Assembly (NCBI GenBank): GCA_036562265.1
Contig: DATCKS010000346.1
Coordinates: forward strand, 1 to 9,753
Length of the DNA: 9,753 nt
Origin: DASVDK01 sp036562265 [NCBI: Thermodesulfobacteriota bacterium]
GTDB lineage: Bacteria; DASVDK01
Reading direction: 5' to 3'
Shown here: positions 1 to 9,753 of the stretch, piece by piece
Numbering within the stretch: position 1 is the stretch's first letter
Layout of the letters: every line of letters starts with the position of its first letter
Translations under genes and position numbers: made by a program
The notes under the pieces: model-generated
Told to the model about the DNA's origin: nothing
What the model saw: the letters and a program-made list of their open reading frames with translations, nothing else
Database searches by the model: none

Positions 1-2
1 AC

Positions 3-734
3 CCGCTCGTGGCCGAGGGCGTGGCGACCCACGGCGGGTTCCTGCGCGACCGCCGGGGCCGCTGGGCGCGGCTGCGCCGCACGCTCGACGCCATGCTCAC
101 CCTCACCTTCGGCACCGACGAGGAGGCGGCGCGCGTCGCCGACCGCATCAACGCCATCCACCGGCGGGTCAACGGGCGACTACCGGCCCGGGCGGGTCCC
201 TTCCCGGCCGGCACCGAGTACTCGGCCTGCGACCCGCGTCTCCTCAGGTGGGTGCACGCCACGTTCGTCGACTCGATCCTCGAGACCTACGCCCTCTTCG
301 TGCGGCCGCTGGCCCAGGCCGAGCGCGATCGGTACTGCGCCGAGGCGACGCGGGTCGAGCCGCTCCTCGACATCCCGGCCGGCTACCTGCCGCGCAGCGC
401 CGGGGAACTGGAACGCTACCTGACGCGCACCCTGGAGAGCGGCGAGATCGTCGTCACCGACACGGCACGGGCCCTGGCGCGCGAGGTGCTCCACCCCGTG
501 CGCCTGCCGATCCTCGGGGCGCTCCTGGCGCCGGTACGCCTGCCGACGGTGGGGCTTCTGCCTCCCGCGATCCGGGAGGCCTACGGCCTCGGGTGGAGCG
601 CGAGCCAGCGGGCCGCGCTGCGGCTCATGGCGCGCGCCGTGCGGGGGATTCTCCCGATCGTGCCGCCGGCCCTCCGCTACTGGCCGATGTCGCGGCGAGG
701 CGAGGGCGACGCGCCGGCGCCGGAGCGGCCCTGA
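3..734 (+). CDS. DUF2236 / MpaB-type oxygenase family protein (5' partial)
   Basis: The reading frame is open from the left edge, and the two codons before the first GTG (position 9) read Pro-Leu. Together with the GTG this gives the 'HPLVA-GV' stretch normally found inside DUF2236 domains, so the true start lies outside the window. Residue numbers count from that GTG. Visible family features are the RRTL segment (23-26), INAIHRRVNG (48-57) and WVHATFVDS (81-89). The last carries the conserved His of the family, which includes the MpaB oxygenases and is related to the latex-clearing (rubber) oxygenases that bind haem. A Pro- and Leu-rich C-terminal half follows and ends at the TGA. The family is thought to be oxidative, but most bacterial members have no known substrate, so no reaction is assigned. 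The gene converges with, and its last 110 bp overlap, the small gene on the opposite strand. Family membership is fairly sure; function is not. Confidence 0.85.
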   Translation, partial: PLVAEGVATHGGFLRDRRGRWARLRRTLDAMLTLTFGTDEEAARVADRINAIHRRVNGRLPARAGPFPAGTEYSACDPRLLRWVHATFVDSILETYALFVRPLAQAERDRYCAEATRVEPLLDIPAGYLPRSAGELERYLTRTLESGEIVVTDTARALAREVLHPVRLPILGALLAPVRLPTVGLLPPAIREAYGLGWSASQRAALRLMARAVRGILPIVPPALRYWPMSRRGEGDAPAPERP

Positions 735-1002
735 ACACGGCGAGCGCCCCGTCGCGCCTGAGCCGGCCGGCGAGGTGCGGCTCGTCGGACGTGACCACCC
801 GGACGACGGGGAGCCAGGCGCCGCGGGCGCCGTCGGCGTCAGGCGACGCCGCCGCGAGCGGCGCGGTGCCGGGCCGGAACAGCGCGATCAGCGTGCCGGT
901 GTCGTGGTCCGCCGCGCGGAGCGCGACCGCCACGGCGCCGAGCCAGAGCGCAAGCAGCGCCGCGCCGAGCGCCGCGGCGATCCGGTGCGGCCGTCCGCTC
1001 AC
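625..1002 (-). CDS. Small one-TM/signal-anchored hypothetical protein, coupled to the MFS gene
   Basis: A 125-residue product. It starts at a GTG whose bases overlap the TGA of the MFS gene (GTGA, 999-1002), a classic sign of translational coupling. Residues 8-28 form one hydrophobic segment rich in Ala and Leu (signal anchor or signal peptide). Residues 37-91 read like a compact soluble domain: a hydrophobic strand, then FRPGT (42-46), then a WLPVVRVV strand (63-70), then DEPHLAGRLRRDGALAVF (73-90). I recall short hypothetical proteins of this layout (one TM, PPGT-like turn, final GAL-hydrophobic strand) in other GC-rich bacteria, but cannot name a family. Residues 92-125 are low-complexity Ala/Pro/Arg/Ser and lie antisense to the end of the DUF2236 gene, so the functional protein may end near residue 91. 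Role unknown; co-expression with the transporter is the only clue. Confidence 0.6.
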   Translation of the reverse strand: MSGRPHRIAAALGAALLALWLGAVAVALRAADHDTGTLIALFRPGTAPLAAASPDADGARGAWLPVVRVVTSDEPHLAGRLRRDGALAVFRAAPAPARRPRLAATSASSGGPAARSGESPARRAP

Positions 1003-2201
1003 GGCGCCGTCGCGAGCGCCGGCCGCGCGGGCCGCTCCGCGATCGGCAGGTGGACCAGGGCCGCGGCGAGCGAGAGGGCCACGGAGAGCCACCAGACGAC
1101 CTCGTAGGAGCCGGTACGCTCGAAGAGCGTGCCGCCGAGCCACACCCCGACGAACGACCCCACCTGATGGCTGAAGAAGACGAGCCCGAAGAGGGTCGCC
1201 ATGTACCGCGTCCCGAACATGACGGCGACGAGCCCGGACGTGAGCGGCACCGTGGAGAGCCAGAGGAGCCCCATGGTAGCGGCGAAGAGGAGCACGCTCG
1301 CGGGGGTGATCGGCACGAGGAGGAAGAGCGCGGTCGTGACGGCCCGCCCGAAGTAGATCGCGCTGAGGAGGAGCCGCTTGCTGTAGCGGCCGCCGAGGAC
1401 GCCCGAGGCGTAGGAGCCGGCGACGTTGAAGAGCCCGACCGTGCCGATCGCCCAGGCGGCGAGCGAGGGGCTCGCGCCGGCGTCGGTCAGGTACGGCGGC
1501 AAGTGGACCGTGACGAAGGCAAGCTGGAACCCGCAGACGAAGAAGCCCGCGACGAGGAGCAGGTAGCTCGCGTGGCCGAAGGCGCCCCGCAGCGCCTCGT
1601 GGAGGGACGTGCGAGCCGCCGCGGGGGCCGCCGCGGCGGGAGCGTCCTTGCGGAGGCCCGGGGCGAGCAGCGGCACCAGCCCCACGAGCCCGGCCAGGAG
1701 GAGCAGCGCCGTGTGCCAGCCGTAGGCCGAGATGAAGGCCTGCGCGAGGGGGACCACGAGGAACTGCCCCAGGGAGCCGGCCGCGGTGCCGATGCCGAGC
1801 GCCCAGGAGCGGTACTCCGGCGGGGCGAGCCGGCCGAAGGCGGCCAGCACGATCATGGTGGAGGCGCCGCCCATGCCGAGCCCGACCAGCACGCCGGCGG
1901 TCGCGTGGAGCGCGAGCGGCGTGGTGCTGTACGGCGTGAGCGCGACCCCGAGCGCGTAGAGGGCGCCGCCGCCGGCCAGCACGCGCGCGACGCCGAACCG
2001 GTCGGCGAGCGCGCCGGCGATCGGCTGCCCCACGCCCCAGAGCAGGTTCTGGATGGCCATGGCGAGGGCGAAGACGTCTCGGGTCCAGCCGTGGTCCGCC
2101 GAGAGCGGCGCGGTGAAGAGCCCGAAGCTGCTGCGCAGGCCGAACGTGATCAGCGACGCCAGGCAGCCGCAGACGATGGCGAGGACGAGTCCGGGCGGCA
2201 T
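999..2201 (-). CDS. MFS transporter (12 TM, monocarboxylate/oxalate-formate antiporter-like)
   Basis: A 400-residue integral membrane protein of the major facilitator superfamily, with the usual length and two six-helix halves. The loop 2-3 signature is seen at residues 63-75 (G-A-L-A-D-R-F-G-V-A-R-V-L). A hydrophilic Ala/Pro-rich central loop lies at about 184-205. The second half carries a weaker matching loop, GGRYSKR (270-276). The N-terminal half (GLRSSFGLF, then GWTRDVFALAMAIQNLLWGVGQP) resembles MFS carriers related to the oxalate/formate and monocarboxylate groups, so an organic acid or a drug-like compound is possible; substrate unknown. The ATG at 2201 is chosen because GGAGGGAGG lies about 8 nt upstream. 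The longer frame from 2315 would run through the tetR operator and start codon and adds only an Arg/Pro-rich tail. The gene is divergent from tetR, which suggests TetR-controlled expression, and is translationally coupled to the small downstream gene. Confidence 0.92.
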   Translation of the reverse strand: MPPGLVLAIVCGCLASLITFGLRSSFGLFTAPLSADHGWTRDVFALAMAIQNLLWGVGQPIAGALADRFGVARVLAGGGALYALGVALTPYSTTPLALHATAGVLVGLGMGGASTMIVLAAFGRLAPPEYRSWALGIGTAAGSLGQFLVVPLAQAFISAYGWHTALLLLAGLVGLVPLLAPGLRKDAPAAAAPAAARTSLHEALRGAFGHASYLLLVAGFFVCGFQLAFVTVHLPPYLTDAGASPSLAAWAIGTVGLFNVAGSYASGVLGGRYSKRLLLSAIYFGRAVTTALFLLVPITPASVLLFAATMGLLWLSTVPLTSGLVAVMFGTRYMATLFGLVFFSHQVGSFVGVWLGGTLFERTGSYEVVWWLSVALSLAAALVHLPIAERPARPALATAP

Positions 2202-2273
2202 GTCGCGAGCCTCCCTCCGGCCGCGCCGGGGACGACGGGCGCGGCGACGAGGATACGGTGCGGCAGCGCCCGG

Positions 2274-2301
2274 TTGATGTCTACTCACTTGTCGGTATAC
2301 A
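2274..2301 (+). promoter_or_regulatory. Sigma70-like promoter of tetR, predicted leaderless
   Basis: TTGATG (2274-2279, -35) and TATACA (2296-2301, -10) are separated by 16 bp. The expected start point, about 7 nt past the -10 box, falls at 2308-2309, which is the tetR ATG. No Shine-Dalgarno sequence precedes that ATG, so both observations point to a leaderless mRNA. The inverted repeat at 2279-2300 occupies the spacer and touches both boxes, so bound repressor would block polymerase. Confidence 0.55.
2279..2300. promoter_or_regulatory. Putative TetR operator (22-bp imperfect inverted repeat)
   Basis: The core is TAC-N2-AC-N2-GT-N2-GTA (2282-2297), extended by GT at 2279-2280 and AC at 2299-2300. 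Seven of eleven base pairs are symmetric. Size, symmetry and position between a TetR gene and its divergent target match known TetR-family operators. Assignment to this TetR protein is inference. Confidence 0.5.
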
Positions 2302-2308
2302 TTGAGCC

Positions 2309-2884
2309 ATGGCACGGGACGCGAGCGGGACGCGCAGGCGAATCCTCGAGGCCGCCGACGAGCTGTTCTACGGGGAGGGGATCCAGAGCGTCGGCGTCGA
2401 CGCGATCGCCGAGCGGGCGGGCGTCACCAAGCGGACGCTCTACTATCACTTCAGGAGCAAGGACGCGCTGATCGCGGCCTACATCGAGGCGCGCGACGGG
2501 CCGTCGTTCGAGCGCTTCCGGCAGTGGGTCGACGAGTCCGAGGGGCCGATCGCGCAGCGCATCGCGGGGATGTTTACGAAGCTCGCCGCCAGGGCTCGCG
2601 ACCCCCGGTGGAAGGGGTGCGGCTTCGCGCGCGCCGCCGCCGAGCTGGCGGGCCTGCCGGGTCACCCGGCGCTCCGGTTCGCGGCGCGACACAAGAAGCG
2701 CTTCGAGGCGTGGCTCGCCGGCCTCCTGCGGCGAAGCGGGGTCGCCAATGCGGACGCCCTGGCGAGGCAGCTCCTGGTGCTGCTCGACGGCGCGATGACC
2801 CACATGCTCATCCACCGCGATCCGTCGTACGCCCACGCCGCCGGGAAGGCCGCCGTGGCGCTGCTCGAGGCGAACCGGCGATGA
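2309..2884 (+). CDS. TetR/AcrR family transcriptional regulator
   Basis: A 191-residue protein of normal TetR length. The N-terminal DNA-binding domain spans about residues 8-55: TRRRILEAADELF opens helix 1, and the helix-turn-helix is IAERAGVTKRTLYYHFRSKD (33-52), very close to the family consensus. The C-terminal ligand and dimer domain includes WKGCGFARAAAELAG (101-115) and HP (119-120). This resembles the 'GC-F-NA-AE---HP' element of a common TetR subgroup whose ligands are mostly unknown. Expected role: a homodimeric repressor released by a small ligand, acting on the 2279-2300 repeat to control itself and the divergent MFS gene. The ATG at 2309 is the first in frame after the promoter and has no ribosome binding site. 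The gene converges with the TRAP operon and could in principle also act there, but no matching repeat was seen at 9690-9753. Confidence 0.93.
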   Translation: MARDASGTRRRILEAADELFYGEGIQSVGVDAIAERAGVTKRTLYYHFRSKDALIAAYIEARDGPSFERFRQWVDESEGPIAQRIAGMFTKLAARARDPRWKGCGFARAAAELAGLPGHPALRFAARHKKRFEAWLAGLLRRSGVANADALARQLLVLLDGAMTHMLIHRDPSYAHAAGKAAVALLEANRR

Positions 2885-2892
2885 AACAAACG

Positions 2893-2944
2893 GGGGGTCG
2901 GACCGTTCCGTTCTCCGGACGGGAGAACGGCAGGTCCGACCCCC
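2893..2944 (-). terminator. Long two-part hairpin, probable terminator of the TRAP operon
   Basis: The outer stem pairs 2893-2904 (GGGGGTCGGACC) with 2933-2944 perfectly over 12 bp. The inner stem pairs 2908-2916 (CCGTTCTCC) with 2922-2930 perfectly over 9 bp, leaving a 5-nt loop and a small internal loop. In the minus direction the hairpin is followed by GTTTGTTTC (complement of 2883-2891), a fair U-rich tract, and starts 22 nt after the dctP stop. In the plus direction there is no T tract, so it is at best a weak terminator for tetR. The GGTCCGACCCC arms also resemble REP-type palindromes. Confidence 0.65.
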
Positions 2945-2966
2945 TCGTCGTCCGCGGGTATCGCTC

Positions 2967-4022
2967 CTACCCCGTCGTCTCGCGGTAGGGCGGGCCCGCC
3001 TTGCGCATGGTCTCCGCGTACTGCTTGAGGATCTCGACCACCTTCGCCGTGCGCGGGCTCCGCTTGGCGACCTCGTCCCAGAACTTGTACGCCTCGTCCT
3101 CGACGGTCCGCCACTCCGACTCGGGGATGGAGGTGAGCTGCAGCTTCCCCCCCTTGGTGCGGTAGTGCGCCTCGCCCCACCAGTACCAGTGCAGCCGGTA
3201 GTAGTGGGAGTGGTCGATGGACATCCGGAAGAGCGTCTTCAGGTGCTCGGGCAGCTCGTTCCACCGCTGCTCGTTGACGAAGTAGGAGCCGGCCCACGCG
3301 CCGGAGATCGGGTTGGTCAGGTAGTACTTCGTCACGTCGGCCCAGCCGACGCTGTAGGTCTCGGTGATGCCGCACCAGGCGACGCCGTCGAGCTCACCGG
3401 TCCGGATCGCGACCGGGACGTCCTCGTACCGGAGGCTGATCGGGATGACGCCGAACCGGCTCATGAACCGGCCGCCGGTCGGGAACATGTACACCCTGAG
3501 CCCCTTCAGGTCGGCGAGCCTGCGGATCGGCTTCGTCGTGGCGAAGTTGCACGGGTCCCACGACCCGGTGCTGATCCACTTCACCCCCTTGACCTGCGAG
3601 TAGGCCTCCTCCCAGATCTTGTCGAGGCCGTACCAGTGCCACAGCACCGGGACGTCGAGCGAGAACCGCGACGCGAACGGGAAGTAGGCGCCGAACACCG
3701 ACACGTCGACCGGCGCCCCCATGGAGTCCTCGTCGCTCTGGCACGCGTCGAGGGTCCCTCGCTGCACCGCGCGGAAGAGTTCGCTCTGCGGGACGATCTC
3801 GTCCGCGGTGTAGAGTTCGATCACCATCTCGCCGTTGGCGGCCTTGTTGAAGGCGTCGATGGACGGCTTGATGACGAACTCCGCGAGGGCGGAGCCGGCG
3901 TAGGTCTGCATGCGCCAGCGGATGGGCGCCTTCTGCGCCCGGGCCTCGCGGGCGGGGGCGGCCATCGCCATCGCGGCGGCGGCCGCGGCCCCGGCCGTCT
4001 TGAAGAAGTCGCGTCTCTTCAT
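2967..4022 (-). CDS. dctP: TRAP transporter substrate-binding protein, DctP family, Tat-exported
   Basis: A 351-residue periplasmic solute-binding protein, the usual DctP length. It begins with a Tat-type signal: MKRRDFFK twin arginine, an Ala-rich hydrophobic stretch (11-22), and a probable cleavage after ARA at residue 29. The mature part shows the DctP order: QTY (39-41), GEMVIELY (64-71), ELFRAVQRGTLDA (81-93), then the hinge-strand region DLKGLRVYMFP (171-181), then AIRTGELDGVAW (205-216), and Trp-rich late helices (279-282). At the place where most DctP proteins have the carboxylate-binding Arg (LKGLK-x-R-V-P), this protein has Tyr178, with Arg185 nearby; see findings. The ATG at 4022 is preferred because GGAG lies 9 nt upstream and the Tat motif then starts at once; the ATG at 4037 has no ribosome binding site. 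It is last in the operon, after dctQ and dctM, across a 133-bp gap. Ligand unknown. Confidence 0.93.
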   Translation of the reverse strand: MKRRDFFKTAGAAAAAAMAMAAPAREARAQKAPIRWRMQTYAGSALAEFVIKPSIDAFNKAANGEMVIELYTADEIVPQSELFRAVQRGTLDACQSDEDSMGAPVDVSVFGAYFPFASRFSLDVPVLWHWYGLDKIWEEAYSQVKGVKWISTGSWDPCNFATTKPIRRLADLKGLRVYMFPTGGRFMSRFGVIPISLRYEDVPVAIRTGELDGVAWCGITETYSVGWADVTKYYLTNPISGAWAGSYFVNEQRWNELPEHLKTLFRMSIDHSHYYRLHWYWWGEAHYRTKGGKLQLTSIPESEWRTVEDEAYKFWDEVAKRSPRTAKVVEILKQYAETMRKAGPPYRETTG

Positions 4023-4040
4023 CGTCTTCGTCTCCATTGA

Positions 4041-4078
4041 GCGTGGCTGGCCACGCGTGACACGGCGTGTGTCGCGAC
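4041..4078 (-). repeat. Tandem inverted repeats in the dctM-dctP spacer
   Basis: GCGTGGC-tg-GCCACGC (4041-4056) is a perfect 7-bp stem with a 2-nt gap. It is followed by CGCG..ACAC-ggc-GTGT..CGCG (4056-4078), two 4-bp stem parts broken by mismatches; the two repeats share the C at 4056. They lie 18-56 nt before the dctP ATG, inside the only long gap of the operon (4023-4155). A small loop makes the first hairpin poor as RNA but acceptable as a protein-binding palindrome. An mRNA processing or stabilising role for the abundant binding protein is possible. No promoter boxes were recognised in the gap. Confidence 0.4.
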
Positions 4079-4155
4079 TATCGGCCTCCCCCGGGTGGCC
4101 CGGTTGCCGGCGGCGCGCTCGCTGGCTCCTTCATCCGCGGCCTCCGGACACGCGG

Positions 4156-5478
4156 CTACCCGTAGACCTGCCTCGGCAGCCAGAGCGCGAGGTCCGGGAA
4201 GACCATGATCAGGACGAGCGTGACGAACATGAGCAGGGCGAAGGGAATGATGGAGGCGTAGATGTCCGACAGGGTGATCTCGGGCGGAGCCATGGCCCGC
4301 ATCAGAAAGAGGTTGTACCCGAACGGCGGCGAGATGTAGGCGATCTGGCAGGTCAGCGTGTAGAGGACGCCGAACCAGATCGGGCTGAAGCCGAGCTTGA
4401 TCACCAGCGGCACGTAGAGCGGCGCGACGATCAGCAGCATGGCGGTGTCGTCGAGGAACATCCCCATGAGGATGAACGAGAGCTGCATCATGAGGATGAC
4501 CGTCCAGGGGCTCAGGTTCCACTCGCCGATGAAGAGGTCGGTGATGGCCCGTCCCGCCCCGAGCCCGTCGAAGACGGCGCCGAAGCAGAGCGCGGCGAGG
4601 ATGATCCACATGAACATGCAGGTCACGACGAGGGTGTTACGGACCGTCTCCTGGATCACGCGCCGCGTGAGCCGCCCCCTGATGGCGGTGGCGAGGGTCG
4701 TGGCCGCGGCGCCGACGGCGGCGCTCTCCACGAGGCTCGCGATGCCGGTCAGGAAGAGCCCCATCATGCTCAGGAAGATCGCGAGCGGGATGACGCCGGC
4801 CCTGAGGAGCCGGAACCTCTGCCCCCAGGTAATCTGCTTGCGCTCCTCGGCGGGGAGCGGAGGACCGAGCTGCGGCTGCAGCCGACAGCGGATGAGGATG
4901 TAGAGGGCGAAGAGCGCCGCCATCACGAGCCCGGGGATCACGCCGGCAAGCCACAGCTCGGCGATCGGCTGGCGGACGATCAGGCCGTAGAGGACGAGGA
5001 CGACGCTCGGCGGCACCATGATCCCGAGGGAGCTGCCGGCCTGGATGACGCCGGTGACCATCCGCTTGTCGTAGCCGCGCCGGAGCATCTCGGGCAGCGC
5101 GATGGTCGCGCCGATGGCCATGCCGGCCACGCTCAGCCCGTTCATGGCGGCGATGATCACCATCATCCCGACGGTGCCGATGGCGAGGCCGCCCCGCACC
5201 GGCCCCGACCAGACGTGGAACATCCGGTACAGCTCGTCGGCGATGCCCGACTCGGAGAACATGTAGCCCATGTAGATGAAGAGCGGGAGGGTGACGAGCG
5301 CGTACCAGTTCATCAGGGTGATGCCGACGTCGAACGGGATCGACTCGGCGCCCGTGCCCCAGAGGAGCAGGGCCGACCCGGCGCCGACGAAGCCGATGAC
5401 GCCGAAGACGCGCTGCCCCGTGAGGAGCAGCAGCATCATCGAGGAGAACATCAGGAGGGCGACGATCCCGTTGCTCAT
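4156..5478 (-). CDS. dctM: TRAP transporter large permease subunit, DctM family
   Basis: A 440-residue, very hydrophobic inner-membrane protein, the standard DctM length, with about 12 membrane segments. It is the ion-coupled permease that takes substrate from the binding protein. Recognisable family elements, in order, are LPLFIYMGYMFSESGIA (64-80), SLGIMVPPSVVLVLYG (150-165), GIASLVESAAVGA (245-257), GMFLDDTAMLLIVAP (339-353) and ISPPFGYNLF (382-391). The conserved double-Pro in PPSV and the paired Asp in FLDD are intact, so the protein looks functional. The ATG at 5478 overlaps the dctQ stop (ATGA) and has AAGGA 7 nt upstream, giving translational coupling that suits fixed QM stoichiometry. 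The stop is followed by a 133-bp gap before dctP. Confidence 0.96.
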   Translation of the reverse strand: MSNGIVALLMFSSMMLLLLTGQRVFGVIGFVGAGSALLLWGTGAESIPFDVGITLMNWYALVTLPLFIYMGYMFSESGIADELYRMFHVWSGPVRGGLAIGTVGMMVIIAAMNGLSVAGMAIGATIALPEMLRRGYDKRMVTGVIQAGSSLGIMVPPSVVLVLYGLIVRQPIAELWLAGVIPGLVMAALFALYILIRCRLQPQLGPPLPAEERKQITWGQRFRLLRAGVIPLAIFLSMMGLFLTGIASLVESAAVGAAATTLATAIRGRLTRRVIQETVRNTLVVTCMFMWIILAALCFGAVFDGLGAGRAITDLFIGEWNLSPWTVILMMQLSFILMGMFLDDTAMLLIVAPLYVPLVIKLGFSPIWFGVLYTLTCQIAYISPPFGYNLFLMRAMAPPEITLSDIYASIIPFALLMFVTLVLIMVFPDLALWLPRQVYG

Positions 5479-6011
5479 TCCAGGGTCCTTCCGCTCACCC
5501 GAGCAAGGTCCTTGAAGAGGACGGCGGTGACCTGCAGGAGCATGAGGACGATGCCGATCGTCATGACCGCCTTGATGGGCGCGAGCGGCGGCCCCCAGGC
5601 GGAGAAGTTGCGCTGGTCGGTCTCGAGCGCGTACCGCGTGCTCTCGATGCCGCCGAGGAGGAGGACGATCAGGTAGAAGAGCAGGGTGCCGACGGTGAGG
5701 AGGTCCACGAGCGCCCGCCGGCGCGCCGTCATGCGGCTGTAGAGGAGGTCCATCCGCACGTGGCCGTCGAGCTGCAGGGCGTAGGCGCCGCCGAGGAAGT
5801 AGTACCCGGCCATGAGGAACTCCGCCATCTCGACGACCCAGAGGGGAAACGTGCGGGTGGCGACGCGGTCGAACGCCGAGAAGAGGAGGATGCCGATCAG
5901 GACGAAGAGGCCGTACATCGTGACCGTGCCGACGGCGCGGTTCAGACGATCGACGCCGCGCACGTAGGCCCTGATCGGGGCAGGCATCCGTTTCGTCCCG
6001 GTACCGTCCAT
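5475..6011 (-). CDS. dctQ: TRAP transporter small permease subunit, DctQ family
   Basis: A 178-residue protein with the four-helix layout of DctQ: hydrophobic segments at about 30-48, 58-79, 103-121 and 147-166. Between them, GHVRMDLLYSRM (83-94) is the typical DctQ 'G-H-V-x-V-D' element after helix 2, and RRRALVDLL starts helix 3. DctQ sits in the inner membrane and forms the QM complex with DctM. The ATG at 6011 is chosen because GGAG lies 8 nt upstream. The same frame stays open for over 400 codons further upstream through the aldehyde dehydrogenase gene, but that part is an out-of-frame shadow rich in Arg and Ala. The gene starts 38 nt after the aldehyde dehydrogenase stop and ends in an ATGA overlap with dctM. 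Confidence 0.94.
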   Translation of the reverse strand: MDGTGTKRMPAPIRAYVRGVDRLNRAVGTVTMYGLFVLIGILLFSAFDRVATRTFPLWVVEMAEFLMAGYYFLGGAYALQLDGHVRMDLLYSRMTARRRALVDLLTVGTLLFYLIVLLLGGIESTRYALETDQRNFSAWGPPLAPIKAVMTIGIVLMLLQVTAVLFKDLARVSGRTLE

Positions 6012-6049
6012 TCGTCTCTCTCCCGTGGGCTCGCGTCCCGCGGACTCTC

Positions 6050-7444
6050 CTAGCCGAGCTTCAGGTGGAAGCTCTTCGGCCGCGTGAGCTGCTCGTACCC
6101 GACCACCGAGAGGGTGCAGCCGCGGCCGGTCAGACGCACGCCGGTCCACGCCAGAGCGGGGTCCAGGTAGTCGCAGCGGTTCATGAACACCGTGCCGGTC
6201 TCGATCTGCTCGCCGATCCGCTCGGCCGCGGCGAGGTCGCGCGTCCAGATGGAGGCGCTCAGGCCGAACTGGCTGTCGTTCATGAGGGCGATCGCCTCGT
6301 CGTCGCTCGTGACGCGCATGACGCCGGCCACCGGCCCGAAGGTCTCCTCCGTCATCACCCGCATGCGGTGGTCCACGTTCACCAGGATCTGCGGCGCGAG
6401 GTAGGGGCCGCGTCCGGTGTCGGCCGGGAAGGCCGCCGGGTCGATCAGCGCGCGGGCGCCGGCCGCGATCGCCTCGGCGACCTGGGCGCGCACCGCGTCG
6501 GCGGCCTGCGCGGAGACCATGGGGCCGAGGGTCGTCGCCGGATCGAGCGGGTTGCCGAGGCGAAGCGCGCGGACCTCCGCGACCAGGGCGTCGAGGAACT
6601 CGTCGTAGACGGCCTCGTGGACGTAGATCCGCTCGACGGCGCAGCACGACTGCCCGGCGTTGAACATGGCGCCGTCGGCGACGCCGGCCGCCGTGGCGCG
6701 GATGTCGGCATCGGCCCGCACGTAGGCCGGGTCCTTGCCGCCGAGCTCGAGGCCGGTCCCCGGGAAGCCCTTCGCCTCGCCGATCGCCCGCTGGATTGCC
6801 CGTCCGCCCGCGACCGAGCCGGTGAAGCAGACGAGCCGCACCGCCTCGTGGCGCATGGCCGCGGCGGCGGCGTCGTGGCTCATGTGCAGGCACTGGAAGA
6901 CGCCGTCGGGGAGCCCCGCCTCGGCGAGGACGCGCGCGAGGCGCTCGCCCGTCGGCGCGGTCTGGGCCGCCGGCTTGAGCAGGACGGTGTTGCCGGCGGC
7001 CAGCGCCGGCCAGACCGAGTTGACCGCCGTCATGAAGGGGAAGTTCCAGGGGACGATGGAGAGGACCACCCCCACCGGCTCGCGCCGGATGTAGCGGCGG
7101 AAGCCCGGCTTCTCCCCGACGTCGATGTCGGCCAGCGCCCGGGGGGCGAGGGCGAGCATCGTCCGCGCCCGCTCCTCGAAGCCCCGCACCTCGCCGCCGC
7201 CGTGGGCGATCGGCCGTCCCATGAGCCAGGCCAGCTCCTCGGCGATCGCCTCCCGCTCCGCGGTGAAGCGATCGACGGCCCGCTCGAGGATCCGGCACCG
7301 CTCGGCAAGCGGGACGCGCCGCCAGGTCTGCCAGGCCGCGAACGCCCGCTCCACGGCGGCCACGGCGTCGGCCGGGCCGACGACCGGCCGCTCGGCGTAG
7401 ACCGAGCCGTCGACGGGGCTCACGATGCGAAAGGTCTCGCTCAC
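6050..7444 (-). CDS. NAD(P)-dependent aldehyde dehydrogenase
   Basis: A 464-residue member of the aldehyde dehydrogenase superfamily, which oxidises aldehydes to carboxylic acids in the cytoplasm. Landmarks, numbered from the GTG at 7444, are PWNFPF (132-137), cofactor Lys157 in LLKPA, FTGS (207-210), general base Glu233 in LELGGKD, nucleophile Cys267 in NAGQSCC, and EETFGP (366-371). The Cys is followed by a second Cys, then AVERIYV. All catalytic residues are present. Two starts are possible. The GTG at 7462 overlaps the SDR stop (GTGA) and adds six residues but has no ribosome binding site. The GTG at 7444 has GGAGG 5 nt upstream and gives MSETFRIVSPVDGS, a natural family N-terminus, so it is preferred. 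Lying between an SDR gene and a TRAP transporter and downstream of a glutamine-synthetase-like gene, it probably oxidises the aldehyde made by the SDR, perhaps a gamma-glutamyl amino-aldehyde. Substrate not provable from sequence. Confidence 0.94.
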   Translation of the reverse strand: MSETFRIVSPVDGSVYAERPVVGPADAVAAVERAFAAWQTWRRVPLAERCRILERAVDRFTAEREAIAEELAWLMGRPIAHGGGEVRGFEERARTMLALAPRALADIDVGEKPGFRRYIRREPVGVVLSIVPWNFPFMTAVNSVWPALAAGNTVLLKPAAQTAPTGERLARVLAEAGLPDGVFQCLHMSHDAAAAAMRHEAVRLVCFTGSVAGGRAIQRAIGEAKGFPGTGLELGGKDPAYVRADADIRATAAGVADGAMFNAGQSCCAVERIYVHEAVYDEFLDALVAEVRALRLGNPLDPATTLGPMVSAQAADAVRAQVAEAIAAGARALIDPAAFPADTGRGPYLAPQILVNVDHRMRVMTEETFGPVAGVMRVTSDDEAIALMNDSQFGLSASIWTRDLAAAERIGEQIETGTVFMNRCDYLDPALAWTGVRLTGRGCTLSVVGYEQLTRPKSFHLKLG

Positions 7445-7458
7445 CGCGTCCTCCGCCG

Positions 7459-8226
7459 TCACTCGGGGGTCACGTAGGCCTGCGTGAGGCCGCCGTCGAC
7501 GAGGAACGGCACGGCCGTGATCGCGGCCGCGTCGTCGCTCGCGAGGAACGCCGCCGCGGCGGCGATCTCCTCCGCCTCGCCGAAGCGCCCCCGCGGCAGG
7601 TGCACGAGCCGCCGCGCGGCCTTCTTCGGGTCCTTCGCGAACAGCTCCTGGAGCAGCGGCGTGTTCACCGGGCCGGGGCAGAGGGGGATCACGCGGATGT
7701 TCTCGCGGGCGAACTGGACGCCGAGTTCGCGGCTCATGGCGAGCACGGCCCCCTTCGAGGCGGTGTAGGCGATCTGCGAGGTCGCCGCCCCCATCACGCC
7801 CACGAACGAGGCGGTGTTGATGACCACGCCGCCGCCGCGCCGCCTGAGGTAGGGGATCCCGTGCTTGCAGCAGAGGAACACCGACGTCTGGTTGACGCGG
7901 ATCACCCGCTCCCAGGCGTCGAGCCCGGTCTCGAGGATCGAGCCGTCGTCCGGGGGGGAGATGCCGGCGTTGTTGAAGAGGATGTCGATGCCGCCGAAGC
8001 GCTCGGCCGCGGTCGCGTACATGCCCTCCACGTCGCGCTCGACGCTCACGTCCGCCCGCACGAAGAGCCCCCCGACCTCGTCCGCCGCGGCCTGCCCGCT
8101 GCGCGCGTCGAGGTCGACGACGCAGACCTTCGCGCCTTCGGCCGCGAACCGCCGCACGGACGCGAGCCCGATGCCGCTTCCGCCGCCGGTGATCACGGCA
8201 ACCTTGCCGTCAAGCCTCCGGGTCAT
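7459..8226 (-). CDS. SDR family oxidoreductase (classical short-chain dehydrogenase)
   Basis: A 255-residue classical SDR with every motif in place: TGGGSGIG (13-20) for the dinucleotide, Asp38 at the end of the second strand (favours NAD over NADP), D59-V60 for the adenine ring, NNAG (85-88), Asn112, and the catalytic Ser140, Tyr154 and Lys158 (YTASK). The LCPGPVNTPLL segment follows the active site as usual, and LVDGG marks the C-terminal end. It would interconvert an alcohol and an aldehyde or ketone in the cytoplasm. The ATG at 8226 is preceded by GGGGAGG with an 11-nt spacer, slightly long. The frame stays open far upstream through the ligase gene, but that part is an out-of-frame shadow. 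It starts 17 nt after the ligase stop, and its TGA touches the alternative aldehyde dehydrogenase start, so the three enzymes are tightly co-expressed. Its likely role is the alcohol-oxidation step between ligase and aldehyde dehydrogenase. Confidence 0.94.
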   Translation of the reverse strand: MTRRLDGKVAVITGGGSGIGLASVRRFAAEGAKVCVVDLDARSGQAAADEVGGLFVRADVSVERDVEGMYATAAERFGGIDILFNNAGISPPDDGSILETGLDAWERVIRVNQTSVFLCCKHGIPYLRRRGGGVVINTASFVGVMGAATSQIAYTASKGAVLAMSRELGVQFARENIRVIPLCPGPVNTPLLQELFAKDPKKAARRLVHLPRGRFGEAEEIAAAAAFLASDDAAAITAVPFLVDGGLTQAYVTPE

Positions 8227-8243
8227 GTCGATGCTGGCCTCCC

Positions 8244-9608
8244 CTACATCCGCTCGAAGCAGCGGAACCGCTCCCAGTCGGTGATCGCCGCGTCGAACGC
8301 CTCGATCTCGACCTCGGCCATGCGCGCGTAGTGTTCCACCACCTCCTCGCCGAAGGCCTCGCGGGCGACGGCGCTCTTCAGGAACCGCTCGCGCGCGTCG
8401 CGCAGCGTGCGGGGCACCCGCGGGGCGTCCGACTCGTAGGCGTTGCCGACGTAGGCCGGCTCGAGCGGCAGCGCCTCGTCGAGGCCGTGGATGCCGGCGG
8501 CGATCATGGCCGCCAGGGCGAGATAGGGGTTCGCGTCGCCGCCCGGGACGCGGTTCTCGACGCGCAGGGTGTCGTCGCGGCCCACCAGGCGGAGCGCGCA
8601 GGTGCGGTTGTCGCGTCCCCAGGCGAGCGCGGTCGGCGCGAAGCTCCCCTTCGCGTAGCGCTTGTACGAGTTGATGTTGGGCGCGAAGAAGAGCGTGAGG
8701 TCCGCCATCGCGGCCAGGAGGCCGGCGACGAAGTGCCGGCCGAGCTTCGACAGCTCGTGCCCGTCGGCCATCACCGGCTCGCCGGAGCGGCTCCGGACGC
8801 TGAAGTGGATGTGGCAGGAGTTGCCCTCGCGCTCGTCGAACTTCGCCATGAAGGTCAGCGCGGCGCCGTGGCGCGCGGCGATCTCCTTCGCGCCGTTCTT
8901 GAAGATGACGTGCGTGTCGGCGGCCCCGAGCGCCATCTGGTGGGTGAAGTTGATCTCGTACTGGCCGCGGTTGCACTCCCCCTTGGAGCCCTGCACCTCG
9001 AGACCGGCGTCGCGCATGTGGCGGCGGATGTCTCGCATGAGCGACTCGGTGCCGACGGTGTCGAGCAGGGCGTAGTCGACGTTGTACAGCGTGGCCGGCG
9101 TGAGTCCCCGGTAGGCCGACGCCCAGGCCTCCTGGTACGTGTTGCGGAAGACCATGAACTCGAGTTCGGTCGCCGCGATGGGGACGAGGCCGCGCTCCGC
9201 CAGACGCTCGATCTGGCGCCTGAGGATCTGTCGCGGCGAGACGACGACCGGGCGGCCGTCCTCCCACTCGAGGTCGCAGAGCACCAGCGCGGTGCCGTCG
9301 AGCCACGGGATGCGGCGCAGGGTGGAGAGGTCCGGGGCGAAGACGAAGTCGCCGTACCCGGTGGACCAGGAGGCGTGGCGGTAGCCGGGGACGGGGTTCA
9401 TCTCCACGTCGACCGTGAGCTGGTAGTTGCACCCCTCGGCCTTGTGCTCGAGCACCGTGTCCAGGAAGTGCTCGGCGTCGAGCCGCTTGCCCTGCAGGCG
9501 CCCCTGCATGTCGACCATGGCGATGACGACGGTGTCGATCTCGCCGGCGGCCACCGCCTGGCGCAGACCGTCCACCGTGAGCCGTCCGCGGCGCGTCTCC
9601 TCGCTCAT
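8244..9608 (-). CDS. Glutamine synthetase-like gamma-glutamyl-amine ligase
   Basis: A 454-residue protein of the glutamine synthetase superfamily, close in length to gamma-glutamylpolyamine synthetases (PuuA, GlnA3/GlnA4 types). The beta-grasp N-terminal domain covers about 1-115, with VDMQGRLQGKR at 32-42. The catalytic domain shows metal-binding Glu148 and Glu150 in TELEF, Glu211 and Glu218 in ECNRGQYEIN, the ATP-site His267 and His269 in CHIHFS, NSYKRY (313-318), Arg335 and Arg340 in NRTCALR, and ENRVPGGDANPYL (351-363). The tyrosine adenylylation motif of housekeeping GlnA (NLYxLP) is absent, and the HIH and ENRV variants argue for an amine other than ammonia. It would join L-glutamate to an amine using ATP. 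The ATG at 9608 has AGGAG 8 nt upstream. It is first in the six-gene operon. Ligase fold is very sure; the amine is unknown, and with an SDR and aldehyde dehydrogenase next to it an amino alcohol is favoured. Confidence 0.93.
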   Translation of the reverse strand: MSEETRRGRLTVDGLRQAVAAGEIDTVVIAMVDMQGRLQGKRLDAEHFLDTVLEHKAEGCNYQLTVDVEMNPVPGYRHASWSTGYGDFVFAPDLSTLRRIPWLDGTALVLCDLEWEDGRPVVVSPRQILRRQIERLAERGLVPIAATELEFMVFRNTYQEAWASAYRGLTPATLYNVDYALLDTVGTESLMRDIRRHMRDAGLEVQGSKGECNRGQYEINFTHQMALGAADTHVIFKNGAKEIAARHGAALTFMAKFDEREGNSCHIHFSVRSRSGEPVMADGHELSKLGRHFVAGLLAAMADLTLFFAPNINSYKRYAKGSFAPTALAWGRDNRTCALRLVGRDDTLRVENRVPGGDANPYLALAAMIAAGIHGLDEALPLEPAYVGNAYESDAPRVPRTLRDARERFLKSAVAREAFGEEVVEHYARMAEVEIEAFDAAITDWERFRCFERM

Positions 9609-9692
9609 CGGTCCCTCTCCTGCGGGGAGCGTCGAGCCCCCGCTCGCCTCCCCTGACGGCCAGGGCTCCTCGGCCGGCGCCGGCAGCCTGGC
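9609..9692 (-). promoter_or_regulatory. Structured 5' leader of the ligase operon
   Basis: Two nested hairpins can form. Near the start codon, GGGGAG (9624-9629) pairs with CTCCCC (9648-9653), enclosing CGAGC (9633-9637) paired with GCTCG (9642-9646) around a CCCC loop. Further away, a perfect 12-bp palindrome (9673-9684) is framed by GCCAGG(g)CT (9659-9667) and AGCCTGGC (9685-9692). The first hairpin ends just upstream of the AGGAG ribosome binding site (9617-9621). No T tract follows either hairpin and no known riboswitch core was recognised. The region may only reflect high GC. Confidence 0.35.
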
Positions 9693-9750
9693 TGTACAGG
9701 AACGTACGCGCGTTTGATTAAGTCACGTTATCTGGTATATGCTGTACAGG
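9691..9750. promoter_or_regulatory. Twin palindromic operator sites GCTGTACAGG, 50 bp apart
   Basis: The same 10-mer occurs at 9691-9700 and 9741-9750, each holding the perfect 8-bp palindrome CTGTACAG, and the start-to-start distance is exactly 50 bp. The TGTAC-type core recalls operators of GntR/FadR-like regulators (TnGTnnnACnA) but does not prove that family. The right-hand copy begins at the last base of the -10 box of an outward promoter; the left-hand copy lies between that promoter and the ligase operon. The layout fits a dimer-of-dimers regulator controlling both directions. Confidence 0.55.
9714..9741 (+). promoter_or_regulatory. Divergent promoter reading out of the right edge
   Basis: TTGATT (9714-9719) and TATATG (9736-9741) are separated by 16 bp, with an extended -10 TG at 9733-9734. 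The spacing and box type closely match the tetR promoter of this window (TTGATG-16-TATACA). The expected start is about 9748, inside the right-hand operator, so the gene lies beyond the window and is probably the regulator of the operon. On the opposite strand a weak CTTAAT (complement of 9717-9722) is the best -10 candidate for the ligase operon, without a clear -35. Confidence 0.5.
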
Positions 9751-9753
9751 TCG

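Follow-up and report, generated by a model that had tools for sequence, protein, structure and literature searches.

In the Puu pathway putrescine undergoes gamma-glutamylation, oxidation and hydrolysis, a sequence that needs an amine oxidase. For ethanolamine, a gamma-glutamyl route with GlnA4, a short-chain dehydrogenase/reductase (SDR), an aldehyde dehydrogenase (ALDH) and an amidohydrolase was laid out in 2019: GlnA4 of Streptomyces makes gamma-glutamylethanolamide, and SCO1611, SCO1612 and SCO1615 were proposed for the later steps to glycine and glutamate (PMC6529630). Also in that paper the oxidations by SDR and ALDH are predicted; in the glnA4 cluster its legend labels an SDR, an ALDH and a glutamine amidotransferase (PMC6529630). 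In 2023, an operon of Phaeobacter sp. MED193 was described in which the tripartite ATP-independent periplasmic (TRAP) transporter EtoVWX is accompanied by ETAGA, GAADDH, GETADH and GGAH, that is, an ethanolamine gamma-glutamylase, two dehydrogenases and a gamma-glutamylglycine amidohydrolase, and by an RpiR regulator; EtoX binds ethanolamine with a dissociation constant of 7.9 uM, and both dehydrogenase proteins are induced by phosphoethanolamine (PMC10132767). How does a related locus in a Thermodesulfobacteriota bacterium compare? We analyzed a stretch of 9,753 nucleotides from this organism (contig DATCKS010000346.1, positions 1 to 9,753), referred to as the window. It carries six genes, encoding a glutamine synthetase-like ligase, an SDR, an ALDH and the DctQ, DctM and DctP subunits of a TRAP importer, which very probably form an operon for the uptake of ethanolamine and its catabolism via gamma-glutamylation.

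The TRAP system, with its EtoX-type DctP, would import ethanolamine, and the GlnA4-type ligase would use ATP to join it to glutamate, yielding gamma-glutamylethanolamide. The SDR would oxidize the alcohol of this intermediate to gamma-glutamylaminoacetaldehyde, the ALDH would convert the aldehyde to gamma-glutamylglycine, and a hydrolase encoded outside the window would split the latter into glycine and glutamate. We infer the import ligand and the ligase reaction from homologues with published tests. The first-pass annotation of this DNA had proposed that an amino alcohol is metabolized via gamma-glutamylation, with the SDR and then the ALDH producing a gamma-glutamyl amino acid, and that the TRAP importer is part of the pathway; homology supports both proposals. 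Novelty of the pathway is not supported: both halves are in print, the GlnA4 enzymes in PMC6529630 and the operon of TRAP and ligase genes in PMC10132767. The remark in the first-pass annotation that a TRAP importer would be unusual in such a pathway agrees with a review that calls ethanolamine 'a particular surprise' (PMC5812351), yet this substrate has been known since 2015.

The locus resembles the Phaeobacter EtoVWX operon and Csal_0678/0679 of Chromohalobacter salexigens in having an EtoX-type TRAP system, a glutamine synthetase-like ligase, an ALDH, an alcohol-oxidizing step and the same predicted reactions. Copies annotated on plasmids of Paracoccus and Ruegeria contain the full known operon and differ from the window: they include an iron-containing alcohol dehydrogenase and an N-formylglutamate amidohydrolase-type gene, whereas the window has an SDR and no hydrolase was found among its genes. 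With the glnA4 cluster SCO1610-SCO1615 of Streptomyces coelicolor the locus shares a GlnA4-type ligase, an SDR, an ALDH and the gamma-glutamylethanolamide route, but the transporter is described there as a putative permease in other Streptomyces, with none in S. coelicolor (PMC6529630).

The ligase

A structure of the ligase was modelled from a 23-sequence alignment (predicted local distance difference test, pLDDT, 81.6; predicted template modelling score 0.87). The top structural match of this model was 5dm3, which is Csal_0679 (Z 48.8, root-mean-square deviation 1.7, 375 aligned residues, 46% identity); its locus number directly follows that of the ethanolamine-binding Csal_0678. GmaS entries matched more weakly (26-28% identity, Z 41.7-42.6), as did 4hpp, which is PauA7 (24%, Z 38.0). 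All 12 residues listed for metal, glutamate and ATP binding by GlnA4 (PMC6529630) are found in the window ligase at a constant offset of 8, and they are invariant throughout the 23-sequence alignment. The flap position of true glutamine synthetase, E327, corresponds to Phe323, counted six residues from R317 without gaps.

A quick tree of 55 ligases, comprising that of the window, 30 of the 80 loci from the ligase scan described below and 24 EtoX-linked rows, separates a GlnA4-type branch from the main EtoX-linked branch with a split support of 100. The window ligase falls inside the GlnA4-type branch and is separate from the remaining 23 EtoX-linked ligases. There it groups with loci L003 and L179 at a support of 87, under the mark of 95, within a set of seven rows (support 99); the named members of this set belong to the Gammaproteobacteria, most of them to the Ectothiorhodospiraceae. 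One row, L176, was flagged as a long branch. We propose that the ligase is a GlnA4-type gamma-glutamylethanolamide synthetase.

The importer and its binding protein

When compared with solved sequences by phmmer, the window DctP matched 4uab with an E value of 1.3e-140 (472 bits), the runner-up reaching 69 bits; identity to the 4uab fragment amounts to 63%. A second entry, 4xf5, has the same sequence, and we take its ligand to be 2-amino-1-propanol. The protein in 4UAB is the TRAP binding protein Csal_0678, solved with ethanolamine and described as lacking the carboxylate-selecting arginine (PMC4646407); its ligand is coordinated by Glu220 among aromatic side chains (PMC12410723). E226 of the window DctP aligns with residue 217 of the 4uab chain and is identical in 56/56 aligned rows, a count that includes the window and the 4uab fragment. 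Presumably E226 is the published platform Glu220, residue 217 being the Glu closest to that number. W41, Y46, W221, Y228, W232, W248, W284, Y285 and W286 are likewise invariant in all rows. The carboxylate-filter position is occupied by Tyr183, which aligns with an Arg of SmoM that we take as the equivalent of Arg-147 of SiaP. DctP is most likely an EtoX-type binding protein, with ethanolamine as its probable import ligand. A structure of DctP predicted from the window sequence alone had a mean pLDDT of 34.8 and was not used.

The window DctP belongs to a small side group with those of loci L149 and L150. At the filter position these three read Tyr-Met, followed by Phe-Pro-Thr-Gly, where most of the 56 rows have Phe-Thr, and the platform Glu is followed by Thr or Val, the other aligned rows having mostly Asp.

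EtoX-like TRAP genes were also seen near two flavin adenine dinucleotide-dependent oxidoreductases and an FGGY kinase, at L082 (6042-9038), L083 (5963-8948), L112, L169, L171, L172 and L173. L082 and L083 have a DeoR regulator besides, and in L083 eutBC are close by. Around the presumed platform Glu the binding proteins of these loci read FTEAY, not ITEDY, which may indicate another ligand.

Gene neighbourhoods and competing explanations

Is this combination of genes found elsewhere? A ligase scan returned at least 579 confirmed matches, the best 80 of which were kept as ligase loci; within 7 kb of the ligase, SDRs of the window type were counted at 55% identity or more and class I amidotransferases (Arthrobacter-like) at 35% or more. 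EtoX-like proteins were sampled at E 1e-60, giving 14/299 in the phylum of genome G008, 35/289 in the class of G292 and 6/229 in the class of G002, Nitrococcus mobilis; other phyla gave 1/296 (that of G010) and 0/101 (that of G009). Fifty EtoX-like loci resulted (14 + 35 - 5 + 6, five matches being common to the G008-phylum and G292-class samples), leaving out L148, on a 4.1-kb contig, and the plasmid loci L081-L084. They were surveyed within 9 kb of the TRAP gene; 8 of the 50 were flagged as ending less than 6 kb from it, so absences there are weak. Absences rechecked in L156, L161, L163 and L183 stood.

Among the best 80 ligase loci, 68 have a window-type SDR, 65 a class I amidotransferase, which the first-pass annotation had suggested looking for nearby, and 4 an iron-containing alcohol dehydrogenase. 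Neither alcohol dehydrogenase was found in eight; six of these are cut at most 3.4 kb downstream of the ligase, and two (L013, L047) have room. The EtoX-like loci include a ligase in 22/50, an iron-containing alcohol dehydrogenase in 24/50 and an N-formylglutamate amidohydrolase-type gene in 22/50; ligase, ALDH and iron-containing alcohol dehydrogenase occur together in 19. The check on conservation that the first-pass annotation had suggested thus favours linkage, as TRAP and ligase recur together, although no second locus showed the very set that includes the SDR. Together with the annotated plasmid copies, these counts indicate that TRAP and ligase genes often adjoin, though not always: in Tistrella and Chelatococcus the TRAP genes stand with other enzymes, the Chelatococcus copy near genes for ethanolamine ammonia-lyase.

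The dehydrogenases point in two directions. The SDR is 61-75% identical to those encoded downstream of GlnA4-type ligases, in loci that are mainly actinobacterial, whereas the ALDH shares only 34-40% with ALDHs of actinobacterial loci and is 71-73% identical to those beside the ligase in L001, L002 and L004, 62% in L005 and 69% in L179. Among the relatives found, L179, from the class of Nitrococcus mobilis, is the nearest that has the TRAP genes as well as the ligase (EtoX-type TRAP 69%, ligase 70%). It differs in having an iron-containing alcohol dehydrogenase instead of the SDR, in that its TRAP genes come first, and in an RpiR regulator and a class I amidotransferase encoded divergently upstream. 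The iron-containing enzyme expected of an EtoX-type operon is absent from the window operon, an NF004713-family SDR being present instead, so that the six genes appear to be an operon of the L179 type with the SDR in place of the iron-type enzyme. The Nitrococcus mobilis loci L002 and L004 combine the window's ALDH type with an iron-containing alcohol dehydrogenase, whereas L008, from a metagenome-assembled Nitrococcus sp. genome, has a GlnA4-type ligase, an SDR (74%) and an ALDH resembling that of Arthrobacter (58%); this contrast is a further sign of swapping. The only new element we found is this hybrid gene content, a GlnA4-type SDR with an EtoX-type TRAP system, and it rests on absence from limited samples. 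No report of such a hybrid turned up in the literature searches made for it, either with combined terms or, among the matches listed, by title and start of abstract.

Several results weigh against assignment of the six genes to ethanolamine. An EtoX-type TRAP system was found within 9 kb in 0/80 of the best ligase loci and the window's SDR type in 0/50 EtoX-like loci, so that the exact set of TRAP, ligase, SDR and ALDH was not met elsewhere in the 80 ligase and 50 TRAP loci. At E 1e-40 the TRAP protein was found in 0/12 genomes with related ligases. Fifteen of the 50 EtoX-like loci hold none of the enzymes sought and five only an FGGY sugar kinase of another gene set, which means that an EtoX-like DctP does not always belong to this pathway. 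Of the DctPs found, those most similar to that of the window, in L149 and L150 (75-76%), lack a ligase gene within 9 kb, although each of these genomes encodes one at 51% elsewhere. Crude open reading frame calling with Pfam at the ligase-less loci L149, L150, L153 and L156 gave no common partner among the few scanned. The residue after the platform Glu is Thr in the window and Asp in 4UAB. Lastly, as the first-pass annotation had noted, a releasing hydrolase is missing: a Pfam scan found none among the window genes, the others being MpaB/Lcp-like, MFS and TetR. The window includes just 145 bases upstream of the ligase, so hydrolase and regulator could lie beyond its edge, and a hydrolase at that place is plausible. 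Searches with the SDR added little: at E 1e-80 it was found in 0/20 genomes of the class of G008, which is uninformative, and at E 1e-60 in 1/12 genomes with EtoX-like proteins, where the match, at 50% identity, is not close.

Could the same route serve another primary amino alcohol, such as 2-amino-1-propanol or serinol, and lead for example to gamma-glutamylalanine? At the filter position, and again next to the platform Glu, the DctPs of the window, L149 and L150 depart from the majority of the 56 rows, which speaks for it, as does the 2-amino-1-propanol taken to be the ligand of 4xf5, but the overall identity to 4uab and the unchanged E226 and many aromatic residues speak for ethanolamine, and GlnA4 is ethanolamine-specific among the compounds tested, according to a figure legend (PMC6529630). 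We consider another physiological substrate unlikely. Similarly improbable is a more specific version, in which a GlnA4-SDR module, otherwise mainly actinobacterial, was combined with an EtoX-type TRAP system whose binding protein, one of the Tyr-Met side group and with Thr following the platform Glu, has shifted to another primary amino alcohol, so that the gamma-glutamyl route would lead to alanine or serine and not to glycine. Isopropanolamine, a candidate of the first-pass annotation, is an unlikely substrate because its secondary alcohol would give a ketone that the ALDH could not finish.

That the ligase acts on polyamines or simple amines, in the manner of Puu, PauA7 or GmaS enzymes, with the dehydrogenases serving other substrates, is very improbable. 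The gamma-glutamylputrescine synthetase model does match the ligase, but at 208.8 bits, far under its cut-off of 650; the structural ranking places Csal_0679 above the GmaS entries and PauA7, the TRAP protein is of the ethanolamine type, and no amine oxidase is found among the window genes. The locus shares the gamma-glutamylation logic of the Puu pathway and differs by its alcohol dehydrogenase. We give hardly any credence to a true glutamine synthetase lying beside an unrelated set of SDR, ALDH and TRAP genes for an organic acid. TRAP systems are predominantly for carboxylates (PMC4646407), and glutamate-ammonia ligase models of type I (203.5 bits, cut-off 429.15) and type III (226.4 bits, cut-off 469.6) match the ligase, both under cut-off; however, the E327 position holds Phe, DctP lacks the filter Arg and has the Glu, and the linkage of ligase, ALDH, alcohol dehydrogenase and TRAP recurs among the EtoX-like loci. 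Ethanolamine catabolism via gamma-glutamylation remains the preferred reading of the six genes.

Operon layout and implications

The six genes (Table 1) run in the same direction, as first annotated, with intact motifs: TGGGSGIG, NNAG and YTASK in the SDR, ELGGK and GQSC in the ALDH. From ligase to DctP the spacings are 17 bases, 14 (or a 4-base overlap if the ALDH starts at GTG 7462), 38, a 4-base overlap, and 118 or 133 bases, counted from Met 4037 and Met 4022, respectively; Pfam assignments and spacing agree with the first-pass annotation, which had given 133. DctP has a signal resembling a twin-arginine one; its match with Pfam TAT_signal is under the cut-off.

Table 1. Features of the operon and its flanks in the window (MFE, minimum free energy).
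Feature	Position	Strand	Support
Glutamine synthetase-like ligase, GlnA4 type (proposed gamma-glutamylethanolamide synthetase)	8244..9608	-	PF00120; 5dm3 structural match; GlnA4 residues 12/12
SDR, proposed gamma-glutamylethanolamide dehydrogenase	7459..8226	-	NF004713 (PRK06057), 434 bits, cut-off 404; Pfam adh_short_C2
ALDH, proposed gamma-glutamylaminoacetaldehyde dehydrogenase	6050..7462 (start GTG 7462 or 7444)	-	PF00171 (Aldedh)
DctQ, small permease subunit of TRAP (EtoV-like)	5475..6011	-	PF04290, 76.8 bits; 37-55% identity to subunits beside EtoX-like proteins
DctM, large permease subunit of TRAP (EtoW-like)	4156..5478	-	PF06808; 59-72% identity to DctM beside EtoX-like proteins
DctP, TRAP solute-binding protein (EtoX-like)	2967..4037 (start Met 4037 or Met 4022)	-	Pfam DctP; 4uab, 199/317 residues identical
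Hairpin between convergent dctP and tetR, probable terminator	2884..2953	-	MFE -53.3 kcal/mol, z -6.35
CCTGTACAGC copy 1, upstream of ligase, possible operator	9691..9700	-	exact match
CCTGTACAGC copy 2, 50 bases farther upstream of ligase	9741..9750	-	exact match

None of 200 shuffles was as stable as the hairpin after dctP, and its 3' side enters a T-rich stretch; a stricter terminator scan and a sigma-70 promoter scan over positions 2800-9753 listed no site, this hairpin included. Upstream of the ligase, CCTGTACAGC holds the palindromic core CTGTACAG. With at most one mismatch it has four matches in the window, the mean over 200 shuffles being 0.29, and the two exact copies may serve as operator for a regulator not seen here. 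TGTACA occurs within 300 bases upstream of related ligases at 4/79 loci, and CCTGTACAGC only in L007. Adjoining the operon are a TetR gene (2309-2884, + strand) and, divergent from it, an MFS transporter gene (999-2201, - strand) whose product has its best NCBIfam match with an L-lactate type (110.7 bits, under the cut-off of 320). A protein with an MpaB/Lcp-type oxygenase domain (PF09995; 9-734, + strand) is apparently cut by the window edge.

Ethanolamine is a common phospholipid head group, and the operon would add one arrangement of a pathway for it that works without ethanolamine ammonia-lyase. Such TRAP genes can be labelled dicarboxylate transporters, so assigning this operon to ethanolamine may help their annotation. 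The comparison with related loci suggests that two unrelated enzyme families can replace each other in the alcohol-oxidizing step, the types of ligase, ALDH and importer being kept.

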